Source: Methanoregula sp. PtaU1.Bin051 (GTDB lineage: Archaea > Halobacteriota > Methanomicrobia > Methanomicrobiales > Methanospirillaceae). Taken from it: 64,000 bases of DNA. The stretch spans positions 124,001 through 188,000 of the forward strand of contig MVRE01000013.1 in assembly GCA_002067895.1 (NCBI GenBank), written 5' to 3'. The translations under genes and the position numbers were made by a program. The first letter of the stretch is position 1. Every line of letters starts with the position of its first letter. Below the pieces are notes generated by a model. That model was given only the letters and a program-made list of their open reading frames with translations. It made no database searches and was not told the DNA's origin. Below are positions 5,484 to 50,452 of the stretch, piece by piece.

Positions 5484-5968
5484 TTTTTTTTCTTACGTTT
5501 GAGTGCTCTCTCAATATTTTTATTAAGTCGTTCAACAATAGCATCGGAAAGCGGCAAATCAATTTCCATTATATTTTCTTCTTCAAGTTGTCCTTTAATC
5601 AGGCGACGTTTTGTAAGCTTTAATTTTATGGGTGCTTTGCGATCTTCTTGTAGAAATTTTAACAAAGTAATAATTAGATCAACAGCAGCTATTCCCAATC
5701 CAAGATGGGAAATAATTTCTGGGCCGCTCTCATGGCACTCCAAAACAAATTGCTCATCATTTCTCTCTATTAAAACATCACCTTCATCTCGTAAGTGCCC
5801 GCAGGGACGAATATATTCGTTTATTCTGGCCCATGTTTTTGGCCAACAATGAAAGCAGCAGCATCCTCCTTGAACGGGTTTGATTTTAATAGAAATGTAA
5901 TCTTCATAATTAGTCGGTGTTTTCAATAACCGGATTGCTCTGTTCAAACTGCTTTCCAAAAGATCCAT
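5480..5968 (-). CDS. Hypothetical cysteine-containing protein, AT-rich
   Basis: The 162-residue soluble protein has a cysteine/histidine cluster at about residues 35-57 (G-G-C-C-C-F-H-C-W and later R-P-C-G-H-L), perhaps a metal site, a middle part with L-G-L-G-I-A-A-V-D-L-I, and a lysine-rich tail. No family is recognised. Like the convergent frameshifted gene, whose stop it overlaps by four bases, it is AT-rich compared with the ribosomal operon beside it. The two were probably acquired together, but a functional link is only inferred. Confidence 0.65.
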   Translation of the reverse strand: MDLLESSLNRAIRLLKTPTNYEDYISIKIKPVQGGCCCFHCWPKTWARINEYIRPCGHLRDEGDVLIERNDEQFVLECHESGPEIISHLGLGIAAVDLIITLLKFLQEDRKAPIKLKLTKRRLIKGQLEEENIMEIDLPLSDAIVERLNKNIERALKRKKKN

Positions 5969-46908: not shown

Positions 46909-48606
46909 ATGGCCGGGGAAGACCCGCGTGACCTCCTGCTGCGCTGTGCGCTTGCCAATGCAGTGAAGCATGGCGGCGTGCCGCAGGCCGGTGCCGTGAT
47001 CGGTATGGTGATGGGGGCGAACCCCGATCTCCGGTCGCGGGCAAAGGAGGTCTCGGCGCTCGCCCGCGAGGTGATCGCGGAGGTTGCGGCCCTCGAGCCG
47101 GAACAGCGCAGGAAAAAATTATCCGAGCTCGCCCCGGAGATGATCGCGGCTCTTTCGGAAAAACACGAGCACAGGAAAGTGCTGCCCGAGCTGGAGGACG
47201 CAAAGGACGGCGTCGTCATGCGGTTTGCACCGAACCCGTCCGGCCCGCTTCACATCGGGCACGCCCGGGCGGCAGTTCTTAACGATGCGTACGTGAAGAC
47301 ATACGGCGGCCGTTACATCCTCCGGATCGAGGATACTGACCCGAAGCGGGTTGATCCCGAGGCGTACGAGACTGTTGTGGAGGACATCAAATGGCTGGGC
47401 CTCGGCATTACCGAGACAGTATACCAGAGCGACCGGCTGGATTTGTACTATGACCTCTGCCGGCAGCTGATCGGACGCGGCGGGGCGTACGTCTGCACCT
47501 GCGACAACGAGCGGTTTAAGGAGCTCAAGATGGCAAAGCAGGCCTGCCCCTGCCGCGAGCAGCCGGTGGAGCAGAACCTCGCACTCTGGGAGAAGATGCT
47601 TGCCCACGGTTTTATGGAGGGAGAGGTGACGGTCCGGGTGAAGACCGATCTTATGCACCCGGACCCTGCGATGCGGGATTTTCCCGCGTTCCGGGTCCTC
47701 GATTCCCCGCCGCACCCCCGGAAGCCTGATGCGTTCGTGTACCCGCTCATGAACTTCTCGGTCGTTGCCGACGACCACCTGCTCGGCGTCACCCACGTGA
47801 TACGGGGCAAGGATCATATCGCCAACACCCGCAGGCAGCGGTACATCTACGACCACATGGGCTGGAAGGTGCCCGTATACCGTCACTACGGCAGGATGGG
47901 GATCGAGGGAGTCGTGCTCTCGACCTCGCAGATGCGGCTCGGGATTAAGGAAGGGACATACACCGGCTGGGACGACATCCGGCTCGGGACATTGCGGGCG
48001 CTCGCCCGGCGGGGAATCCTGCCCGAGGCGGTCAGGAACGCGATGCTGGCTATAGGAATCGGTGAGACTGACATCTCGTTCTCGTGGGACAACCTGTACT
48101 CGGAGAATAAAAAGATCATCGATCCGATTGCGAACCGGTACTTCTTTGTTCCGGACCCGGTGACGATCACGATCCGTGCTGCCCCGCAGCTGACAACACA
48201 CGCGCTCCTCCATCCCGCCGATGAGAAGCGGGGCGTGCGGACACTTGCGTTCACCGGCGCGATCGTCCTTCCGGCAGCCGAACTTGGGGACAGGACAAGA
48301 AGCCTTATCCGGTTAAAAGACCTGTTCAACGTTACGGCGGAGTACGACCACGGGAGGCCGCACCTCTCCTATGCCGGCGATTCCCTTGCCGAAGCCCGTG
48401 CGGCAAAGGCCCCAATCGTCCAGTGGCTGCCGGTCGCGGATCAGGTCCCGTGCACTTTGCGGACACCGGAAGGGGATATCATCGGGGCCTGCGAACCTGC
48501 CGTACGGAACGAGCTTGGAAAAGTCGTCCAGTTCGAGCGGGTCGGGTTTGCCAGGATCGATTCCGTGACGGACGACGGTGTTGTGGCGTATTTCACGCAT
48601 AAGTAA
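46909..48606 (+). CDS. gltX: Glutamyl-tRNA synthetase, archaeal (Glx) type
   Basis: The 565-residue class I synthetase has the HIGH motif in P-N-P-S-G-P-L-H-I-G-H-A-R and a KMSKS-type loop V-L-S-T-S-Q-M-R-L, in which the usual lysine is replaced by Gln. An archaeal-type beta-barrel anticodon domain follows. It charges tRNA-Glu and, where an amidotransferase exists, misacylates tRNA-Gln. It closes the lipid/translation operon; the next region is palindrome-rich and gene-free. Confidence 0.96.
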   Translation: MAGEDPRDLLLRCALANAVKHGGVPQAGAVIGMVMGANPDLRSRAKEVSALAREVIAEVAALEPEQRRKKLSELAPEMIAALSEKHEHRKVLPELEDAKDGVVMRFAPNPSGPLHIGHARAAVLNDAYVKTYGGRYILRIEDTDPKRVDPEAYETVVEDIKWLGLGITETVYQSDRLDLYYDLCRQLIGRGGAYVCTCDNERFKELKMAKQACPCREQPVEQNLALWEKMLAHGFMEGEVTVRVKTDLMHPDPAMRDFPAFRVLDSPPHPRKPDAFVYPLMNFSVVADDHLLGVTHVIRGKDHIANTRRQRYIYDHMGWKVPVYRHYGRMGIEGVVLSTSQMRLGIKEGTYTGWDDIRLGTLRALARRGILPEAVRNAMLAIGIGETDISFSWDNLYSENKKIIDPIANRYFFVPDPVTITIRAAPQLTTHALLHPADEKRGVRTLAFTGAIVLPAAELGDRTRSLIRLKDLFNVTAEYDHGRPHLSYAGDSLAEARAAKAPIVQWLPVADQVPCTLRTPEGDIIGACEPAVRNELGKVVQFERVGFARIDSVTDDGVVAYFTHK

Positions 48607-49114
48607 CCTTATCGGGATCCGGTTATAGGGGGGTGCCCCTCTCTCCACCCCATAAGCCACCCCCCTTAGCCCATACCCTACCCCCCCACCTCCGGACCCC
48701 GTTTACCCCCCTCGTTTTTCCCAACGATTCTCGTTTTACGGCTAACTCTCCGACGAAAGAGGGGGTGGTACCCCCACCTATGGCCATGAGGGGGTACCCC
48801 CACCTCGATTGGTCAGGGATACCCCCCTCCCCCCCACCCGGGGGTCACGGGTACAGTGACCGGCCCCCCTCCCCAAGGGGGGAGGGGTGGGGGTACCCCC
48901 CTTGTGGCGGTTTTGGGTCTTCGACGGCGATTTCAGTGGTTTAACCTGCATTTCCGGTGCAAAACGGGGGGGTACACCCCATCGGGTGGGGGAGGGTATC
49001 CCCTCACCCCCTTTGATCGCAGAGCCCCTCCCACCCCCCCGGGGGGTGGTTGGTCGGGCTGAGGGTGGCACCCCCCCGTTACGGCCAAAAGGGGGGTACC
49101 CCCCCATCGCACCT
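48607..49114. repeat. Array of G-run/C-run palindromes
   Basis: The stretch holds repeated palindromes around a GGTACC core. Exact GGGGGTACCCCC copies occur at 48790-48801 and 48889-48900, and a 14-bp GGGGGGTACCCCCC copy at 49091-49104; degenerate copies lie near 48761, 48820, 48965, 48995 and 49072. CCACCCCCC/GGGGGGTGG (49031-49039, 49041-49049) and a CCCCTCCCC/GGGGAGGGG-type hairpin near 48867 add to it. It starts after gltX and ends just before the methyltransferase gene. No coding sense is apparent; the open frames through it are low-complexity. Confidence 0.7.
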
Positions 49115-50452
49115 GTGATCTGCCGGCTTAGGGACATACCCGATTATTCCCTGCCAGCGAGGTTTTACGTACCTTTGCGCCCAACAGTGTCATGGAAGAA
49201 GGTGTGCGATCTGGCACAGTTGTCCGGCCCCGGTCTCAAGAAGTTCCTGTCGGAATTCAGGGGCCCGTCCGGTACCCGCACCGAGACGGACGAGATAGCA
49301 CTTACCGGCATCCCTCCTGTCCCGGTCTACTCCAACGAGTTCTGGACGGCAGGGCAGCGGAAGGCGTCATCGATCCACGAGATCTCGTACCGTGCCTGCT
49401 TCAAGCCCCAGCTCCCCCGGTTCTTCATCGATCTGTTAACAACGAGAGGGGACATCGTATACGATCCCTTCAGCGGGAGGGGGACGACGGTCATCGAGGC
49501 TGCGCTCTGCGGCCGGAAGATTATCGCAAACGATGCCAACCCGCTCTCCCGGATCATGACCGAGCCCCGGCTCGCCCCGCCCCGGGTTATCAATGTGGAG
49601 GAACGGCTTGCAACAATCCCCCGCGATGGCAGTCGTGCGGACTGCGACCTCTCCATGTTCTACCACAAGGATACCGAGCGCGAGATCGTGGCACTCCGGG
49701 AGTACCTTCTGGAGCGGAGAAGGGAACATAAGGAGGATGTGATCGACCGCTGGATCGCGATGGTCGCAACCAACCGGCTGACCGGCCACTCGTCCGGGTT
49801 CTTCTCTGTCTATACCCTCCCGCCCAACCAGGCGGTCTCGCCGGAGAGCCAGAAGCGGATCAACCGCCGCCGGAACCAGAAACCGGGGTACCGTGACACG
49901 CACAAACTCATCCTGAAGAAAACAAAGAGCCTGCTCTCAGGCCTGAATACGGATCAGATCCGGAACCTGAACAGTGCGGCAAAAACAGCGGTGTTCCTGA
50001 CCTGTGATGCCGGGCGGACTGAAGCAATCCCCGATAGCTCCGTTCATCTCACGGCAACCTCGCCCCCGTTCCTAGACATCGTCCAGTACCGTGAGGACAA
50101 CTGGCTCAGGTGCTGGTTCAACGGCCTCGATACCGATGTGATCGGGAAAGGGATCACGATGGCGCGGACCGTCAGGGATTGGACCGGGGTGATGCAGGAC
50201 GTCTTTGATGAGCTCTACCGGATCACCAGACCCGGGGGCCGGGTGGCATTCGAGGTCGGCGAGGTGAGGAAAGGTACCATCCGGCTCGAGGAAGAGGTTA
50301 TTCCCCTCGGGACTGCAGCCGGGTTCTCCTGCGAAGCGGTCATGATCAACTCGCAGGAGTTCACCAAGACCTCGCACATCTGGGGTGTTGCCAACATGGG
50401 CTGCGGAACTAATACGAACCGGATCGTTATGTTCAGGAAACCAGCCGGATGA
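49115..50452 (+). CDS. DNA methyltransferase (N6A/N4C type)
   Basis: The protein of about 445 residues has motif I D-P-F-S-G-R-G-T-T near 115 and catalytic motif IV T-S-P-P-F-L-D near 310, followed by a motif R-P-G-G-R-V-A-F-E-V. Motif I precedes motif IV, the reverse of the order in beta-class enzymes. No restriction endonuclease is adjacent, so it may be an orphan methyltransferase. The start is uncertain: GTG 49115 precedes the first protein-like residues, while the open frame to 48887 runs through the palindrome array. A start even later (GTG near 49184) is possible. Confidence 0.8.
   Translation: MICRLRDIPDYSLPARFYVPLRPTVSWKKVCDLAQLSGPGLKKFLSEFRGPSGTRTETDEIALTGIPPVPVYSNEFWTAGQRKASSIHEISYRACFKPQLPRFFIDLLTTRGDIVYDPFSGRGTTVIEAALCGRKIIANDANPLSRIMTEPRLAPPRVINVEERLATIPRDGSRADCDLSMFYHKDTEREIVALREYLLERRREHKEDVIDRWIAMVATNRLTGHSSGFFSVYTLPPNQAVSPESQKRINRRRNQKPGYRDTHKLILKKTKSLLSGLNTDQIRNLNSAAKTAVFLTCDAGRTEAIPDSSVHLTATSPPFLDIVQYREDNWLRCWFNGLDTDVIGKGITMARTVRDWTGVMQDVFDELYRITRPGGRVAFEVGEVRKGTIRLEEEVIPLGTAAGFSCEAVMINSQEFTKTSHIWGVANMGCGTNTNRIVMFRKPAG

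Follow-up and report, generated by a model that had tools for sequence, protein, structure and literature searches.

The gene-free DNA between a Glu/Gln-tRNA synthetase family gene (PF00749; gltX; 46909–48606, plus strand) and a DNA methyltransferase gene (PF01555; PADLOC MTase_II; 49187–50452, plus strand) of Methanoregula sp. PtaU1.Bin051 is crowded with palindromes, which raises the question of what kind of element they form and whether it belongs to either neighbour. Positions refer to the window, i.e., the whole 64,000-nucleotide stretch that was analysed; an S15-Methanomicrobia leader, together with close relatives of the synthetase that carry the names Methanoregula or Methanomicrobiales, points to a position near Methanoregula. 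We consider it moderately probable that the array belongs to a family of GC-rich, palindromic, non-coding repeats that has persisted at old sites and is homogenised through recombination.

The clustering itself is far beyond chance. Counting non-overlapping hairpins and palindromes (arms ≥ 5, loops ≤ 4) yields 12 in 48607–49114, compared with 4.9 ± 2.0 after dinucleotide shuffling and 5.8 ± 1.8 when every homopolymer run is preserved, and none of the 300 shuffles of either type reaches 12. The palindrome cluster of the original prediction is thereby borne out, and its three exact palindromes of at least 12 bp become four even ones: GGGGGTACCCCC at 48790–48801 and again at 48889–48900, CCCCCCGGGGGG at 49035–49046, and GGGGGGTACCCCCC at 49091–49104. 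For exact palindromes of this length, the observed count is equalled by 0 of 300 dinucleotide and 4 of 300 run-preserving shuffles. Runs of at least five G or C number 23 in the array against a window mean of 1.2 per 508 bp; when the window is binned by such runs, the two highest bins, taken as overlapping the array, hold 18 each and the others at most 7. Three G-quadruplex motifs lie within the array and one in the remainder of the window. GGTACC does occupy palindrome centres as had been claimed, four of them (48767, 48793, 48892 and 49095), yet the same hexamer occurs 31 times in the 64 kb window.

The bounds of the element are corrected to about 48627–49106, directly 3′ of the Glu-tRNA synthetase stop codon; both flanking genes are neighbours that lie outside it. 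This copy (48627–49106, plus strand; R1) sets the orientation for all others. From its 5′ end, it comprises a conserved linker GTTTACCCCCCTCGTTTTTCC (48701–48721, plus strand), the reverse complement of which, GGAAAAACGAGGGGGGTAAAC, resembles a half-site of the 3′ linker, and a second conserved linker CTCTCCGACGAAAG (48746–48759, plus strand), which is a hairpin CTCTC..GAGAG in other copies. There follow the palindrome GGGGGTGGTACCCCC (48761–48775), the first of the two exact GGGGGTACCCCC palindromes, a hairpin GGTCAC..GTGACC (48843–48861, plus strand), and a hairpin CCCCTCCCC..GGGGAGGGG with arms of 9 (48866–48887). The second GGGGGTACCCCC palindrome, which is kept across copies, precedes the most conserved linker, with the consensus TCTCCGACGGAGANTTCA (48918–48935, plus strand), and a further conserved linker with the palindrome CATTTCCGGTGCAAAACGGGGGGGTACACCCC (48949–48980, plus strand), which weakly resembles an origin recognition box (ORB). 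The 3′ part consists of the palindromes GAGGGTATCCCCTC (48992–49005), CCACCCCCCCGGGGGGTGG (49031–49049) and GGGTGGCACCC (49063–49073), and the exact palindrome GGGGGGTACCCCCC. Open frames of 103 and 119 amino acids run across the array, and array copies differ by indels; the element is non-coding.

The adjacent methyltransferase and the four GGTACC centres invite the reading, contained in the original prediction, that the palindromes are operators for autoregulation of the enzyme or its recognition sites. However, the seven other copies of the array in the genome lie beside other genes. The methyltransferase occurs in 43 of 61 genomes (own genome included), and 20 of its loci were fetched, 18 of them with a script-readable frame (own locus included). 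None of the 17 other readable loci carries an array upstream: within about 700 bp, 16 lack a G4-n-C4 palindrome and one has a single such palindrome. Neither partner was found downstream of gltX in relatives, where up to 700 bases in the 8 relatives with sequence contain no array and tblastn detects the methyltransferase at 0 of 9 gltX loci; the neighbourhood seen in the window is therefore not common to the relatives examined. On the strength of the dispersed copies, the gltX loci of relatives, the spread of the gene and the lack of upstream arrays, the link is rejected and the autoregulation proposal, which we regard as scarcely credible, finds no support. The position of the array looks like a coincidence, and the gene like a bystander.

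Of the options first proposed, the repeat-born element is supported. In the own genome (G000; 2,312,687 bases, 23 contigs) the element is found at 8 places: a search with the whole 508 bp returned, beyond the window copy, seven places at 77–88% identity, two of which are clearly partial. When the copies are aligned, their palindromes and linkers follow a single fixed order, and the recurring unit is the whole array of about 450–500 bp, not the single palindrome. A genome-wide count, which had been proposed as a check, gives 17 sites for GGGGGTACCCCC compared with 3 for the backwards-read pattern, and these are mostly clustered. The other copies adjoin unrelated genes. Copies on contigs C18, C5 and C2 lie at contig ends, where C2 starts with a fragment of the element, and the copy on C20 lies no more than about 700 bp from an end, as expected if repeats break assemblies. 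Separately, the last 75–83 bp of contig C5 are 98–100% identical to the starts of C2 and C23, itself a sign of repeat-broken assembly.

Close relatives possess the element as well, as the proposed search for the array in relatives established. The DNA query detects it in 4 of 101 genomes, all of the own genus. A sequence-only model, a core of 153 positions derived from 12 copies, matches 15 of 149 genomes: in the own genus 7 of the 8, in a second genus (g5) 7 and in a third (g15) 1. The weaker ones among them may be chance hits in G/C-run DNA. When the filters are relaxed, all genus genomes except G003 (7 of 8) match at E ≤ 0.01, several of the matches being reverse-strand echoes of one place. 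An initial pattern scan of genome contigs, from which the own genome was possibly left out, gave no match.

Some of these copies sit in the same gene neighbourhood in different species. Flank proteins were compared between the eight stretches fetched from the own genome, together with 20.6 kb of the window, and seven stretches from relatives. The arrays at G000 C5, G004 2.056 Mb and G002 C12 have flank genes in common, the latter two on both sides. Those at G000 C18 and G004 2.139 Mb have a methyltransferase-like gene in common, a match that rests on this one gene, and the G004 2.139 Mb and G002 C45 arrays have genes on the other side in common. The pair G000 C20 and G004 1.367 Mb has a lipoprotein-like gene in common with the array on opposite sides of it, and was not counted as matching. 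Under a rough Poisson model, the probability that G000 and G004 coincide in two neighbourhoods within 5 kb is 0.006, and for three it is about 2e-4. At the window site, what follows gltX is different in each of the 8 relatives for which this side is sequenced, and no insertion or empty site could be demonstrated.

Despite the shared positions, own-genome copies group together. In a maximum-likelihood tree of 13 of the 15 copies, from which two truncated own copies were dropped, the own copies and those of relatives separate with 100% bootstrap support, and the G002 and G004 copies are intermixed among the relatives. Grouping of the 13 copies by matching locus is rejected (delta logL 239, AU p 4.8e-5). 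In addition, a double hairpin of about 55 nt occupies one shared register in three copies from separate loci (G004 2.139 Mb, G004 1.367 Mb and G005 C79), and is absent at that register from G002 C45, the positional match of G004 2.139 Mb.

Gene conversion explains both the likeness within genomes and the distribution of the double hairpin. Haloarchaea and the mtrA genes of Methanomicrobiales are both reported to undergo gene conversion (PMC8223754, PMC4632066). In our reading, the element belongs to a Methanoregula-like genus, and some copies have stayed in an unchanged gene neighbourhood since before the species split. Copies within a genome would exchange sequence, with gene conversion or recombination-templated copying as the most likely route, and because of this exchange they would resemble one another more than the copies at matching positions in other species. 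Palindrome centres have also taken up short hairpin modules, which are seen at one shared register in copies from separate loci. As an alternative, recent amplification into the same, preferred sites would also account for the clustering within species.

Miniature inverted-repeat transposable elements (MITEs) are short, non-coding and dispersed, with terminal inverted repeats and target-site duplications. The array is likewise short, non-coding and dispersed, but both of its fuzzy ends are full of C/G runs, terminal inverted repeats could not be defined, and no target-site duplication was found: a flank repeat at p = 0.04 was seen in 1 of 6 copies and none in the others, a test limited by the fuzzy ends. 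No mobilising enzyme was identified for the element.

Extragenic palindromes in mosaic clusters are also seen in bacterial REP/BIME families (PMC2817692, PMC3116915, PMC3733652), and the array units are palindromic, extragenic and clustered, as would suit a family moved by an IS200/IS605-type (RAYT) transposase. REPs, however, usually exceed 100 copies per genome and are tied to RAYT transposases (PMC2817692; PMC3733652), whereas here there are about eight arrays of 450–500 bp, each recurring as a whole, and 17 GGGGGTACCCCC sites. The Y1 transposase (Y1_Tnp, PF01797) is present in 0 of 37 genomes of the own family, own genome included, and in 5 of 14 control genomes. A present-day RAYT is thus rejected as the mover and a past one is conceivable; overall, we hold membership in a REP/BIME family to be very unlikely. 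RepRanger (PMC12306157) reports REPs in archaea in general, and the archaea in the table passage of that paper do not include this genus.

Viral or plasmid carriage was considered and rejected. BLAST against phage and plasmid records returned no match to the element, nor did an IMG/VR search with the linker pattern, and a looser palindrome pattern picks out 8 viral contigs that contain single palindromes and at best one weak match of 28 nt to the model (E 0.0048).

Of the known kinds found, yeast mitochondrial GC clusters come closest. GC42 is a 42-nucleotide unit with a putative target-site duplication, and the clusters (GC42 and others) are dispersed GC-rich palindromic intergenic DNA whose units merge and shuffle and for which a part in recombination and gene conversion has been proposed (PMC4478555). 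The array shares the dispersed GC-rich palindromes and the merging or shuffling of units, but differs in its scale of about 500 bp, its location on an archaeal chromosome, its matching neighbourhoods between species and the lack of a detectable duplication. A literature search on palindromic repeats in methanogens found no description of such arrays. The element is real and not described in the literature searched; it is of an ordinary kind, and unusual in scale, in its persistence at fixed sites and in its homogenisation.

Could the array instead act as a transcribed, multi-copy structured RNA that folds as a chain of hairpins? Its linkers are strongly conserved, and the aligned copies (12 of 15) fold better than 60 column-shuffled alignments, with z −7.4 on the plus and −11.0 on the minus strand; however, better folding of both strands is what any palindrome array would show. 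Compensated cells number 15 compared with 7.9 ± 1.9 in shuffles, of which 0 of 500 reach this value, in a test that ignores the kinship of the copies, but the 8 extra pair types (5.6 expected) are equalled by 37 of 500 shuffles. For Watson–Crick-only structures, the minus-strand excess of G·U (61 G·T vs 26 A·C) is paralleled by 35 A·G vs 11 C·T and hence reflects G richness, and single mismatches within helices run in the opposite direction (3 G·T vs 12 A·C). A strand-specific wobble signature is accordingly rejected, as the G·U asymmetry disappears once other mismatches are counted. No Rfam family matches the arrays: a search of 14 array loci returned two fluoride riboswitches, both outside the array. 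A/T-only 7-mers are scarce inside the elements (0, 0, 8, 4, 2 and 1 in six copies), the flanks differ among copies, and no common promoter is seen. Taken together, a structured RNA appears unlikely, while the structured DNA element that had also been suggested is a candidate reading compatible with the data.

A different role, as a chromosomal protein-binding array, is suggested by one linker. The conserved linker TTTCCNGTGSAAAACGRGGGGGT, also written TTTCC..GSAAAACGRGGGGGT, has the layout of the ORBs beside cdc6 in the genus (TTCCAGTGGAAACAAAGGGGT), with a dyad akin to the ORB dyad TTCCANNNGAAAC and a comparably spaced G-string; nine of the ten best matches of a matrix of 20 cdc6-side ORBs in 208,730 own bases fall within arrays, and array positions are conserved between species. 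Binding of Orc1/Cdc6, as an initiator sink or an accessory origin, would be one possibility. However, array sites score 9–19 bits compared with 26–37 for true ORBs, in a scan that favours G-rich DNA and is biased to the G-rich arrays, and in the relatives' stretches the top match (19.9 bits) lies outside any array. The motif drifts, by eye, to forms like TTTCCTGTGCAAA in more distant copies. Nor is the array adjacent to an orc1/cdc6 gene: cdc6-1 lies near C12:148 kb with the nearest array about 13 kb away, and in the own genome no array and no array-type motif is found near cdc6-2. Set against archaeal ORBs (PMC4010727), the array is alike in the dyad and G-string layout of one linker, and unlike in scoring well below true ORBs and in not lying beside an initiator gene. 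We judge such a protein-binding array improbable. The broader version, with the arrays as selected chromosomal loci that serve as multi-copy binding platforms, perhaps as an Orc1/Cdc6 sink, with positions fixed and sequences evolving in concert, is to us quite improbable. The bacterial datA locus has a role comparable to that of the proposed sink. Binding platforms of this kind, if real, would constitute a new kind of archaeal chromosome-control element. As a separate observation, a probable chromosomal origin lies beside cdc6-1, with ORBs in opposite orientations (L096 about 1800–2300; L097/L098).

A palindromic repeat that persists at old sites while recombination homogenises its copies remains our preferred reading. 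It is most likely a selfish or neutral repeat, probably devoid of a host function, the palindromes of which would extrude as hairpins in vivo and serve as substrates for recombination. That copies have stayed so long where they are, and that linkers are strongly conserved, could equally point to selection for a function, and the conserved linkers provide a short list of candidate protein-binding sites. Repeats that keep their place and are homogenised per genome would be a clean natural case in which to measure gene conversion between distant sites in methanogens.

Several further features were seen at these loci. At L008:3448–5962, the array copy C12b has an Mrr-type nuclease gene and another DNA methyltransferase close by. 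In two genomes of genus g5 (L112, L113), related arrays lie beside an apparent ribosomal protein L40e gene, labelled by reading. At L005, two divergent fluoride riboswitches (5741–5803, minus strand; 5893–5957, plus strand) lie about 90 bp apart. The double-hairpin module of about 55 nt (GAAGATA..TATCTTC, CTGCC..GGCAG) occurs inside array palindromes and in another repeat context (stretches L069, L070, L074, L072, L060 and L033–L050), and its pattern matches a single genome as many as nine times; since a wider search revealed this second context, no target specificity for palindrome centres is claimed for the module. The own genome also holds a further family of palindromic repeats, R2, the palindromes of which are of the GGGGGTCTCATATGAGACCCCC type, at six places (L008:2600–3085 on G000 C12, C18:30–239, C5:38066–38387, C12:205454–205659, C9:17822–18129 and C2:44462–44769), and at three places it is joined to the array element.
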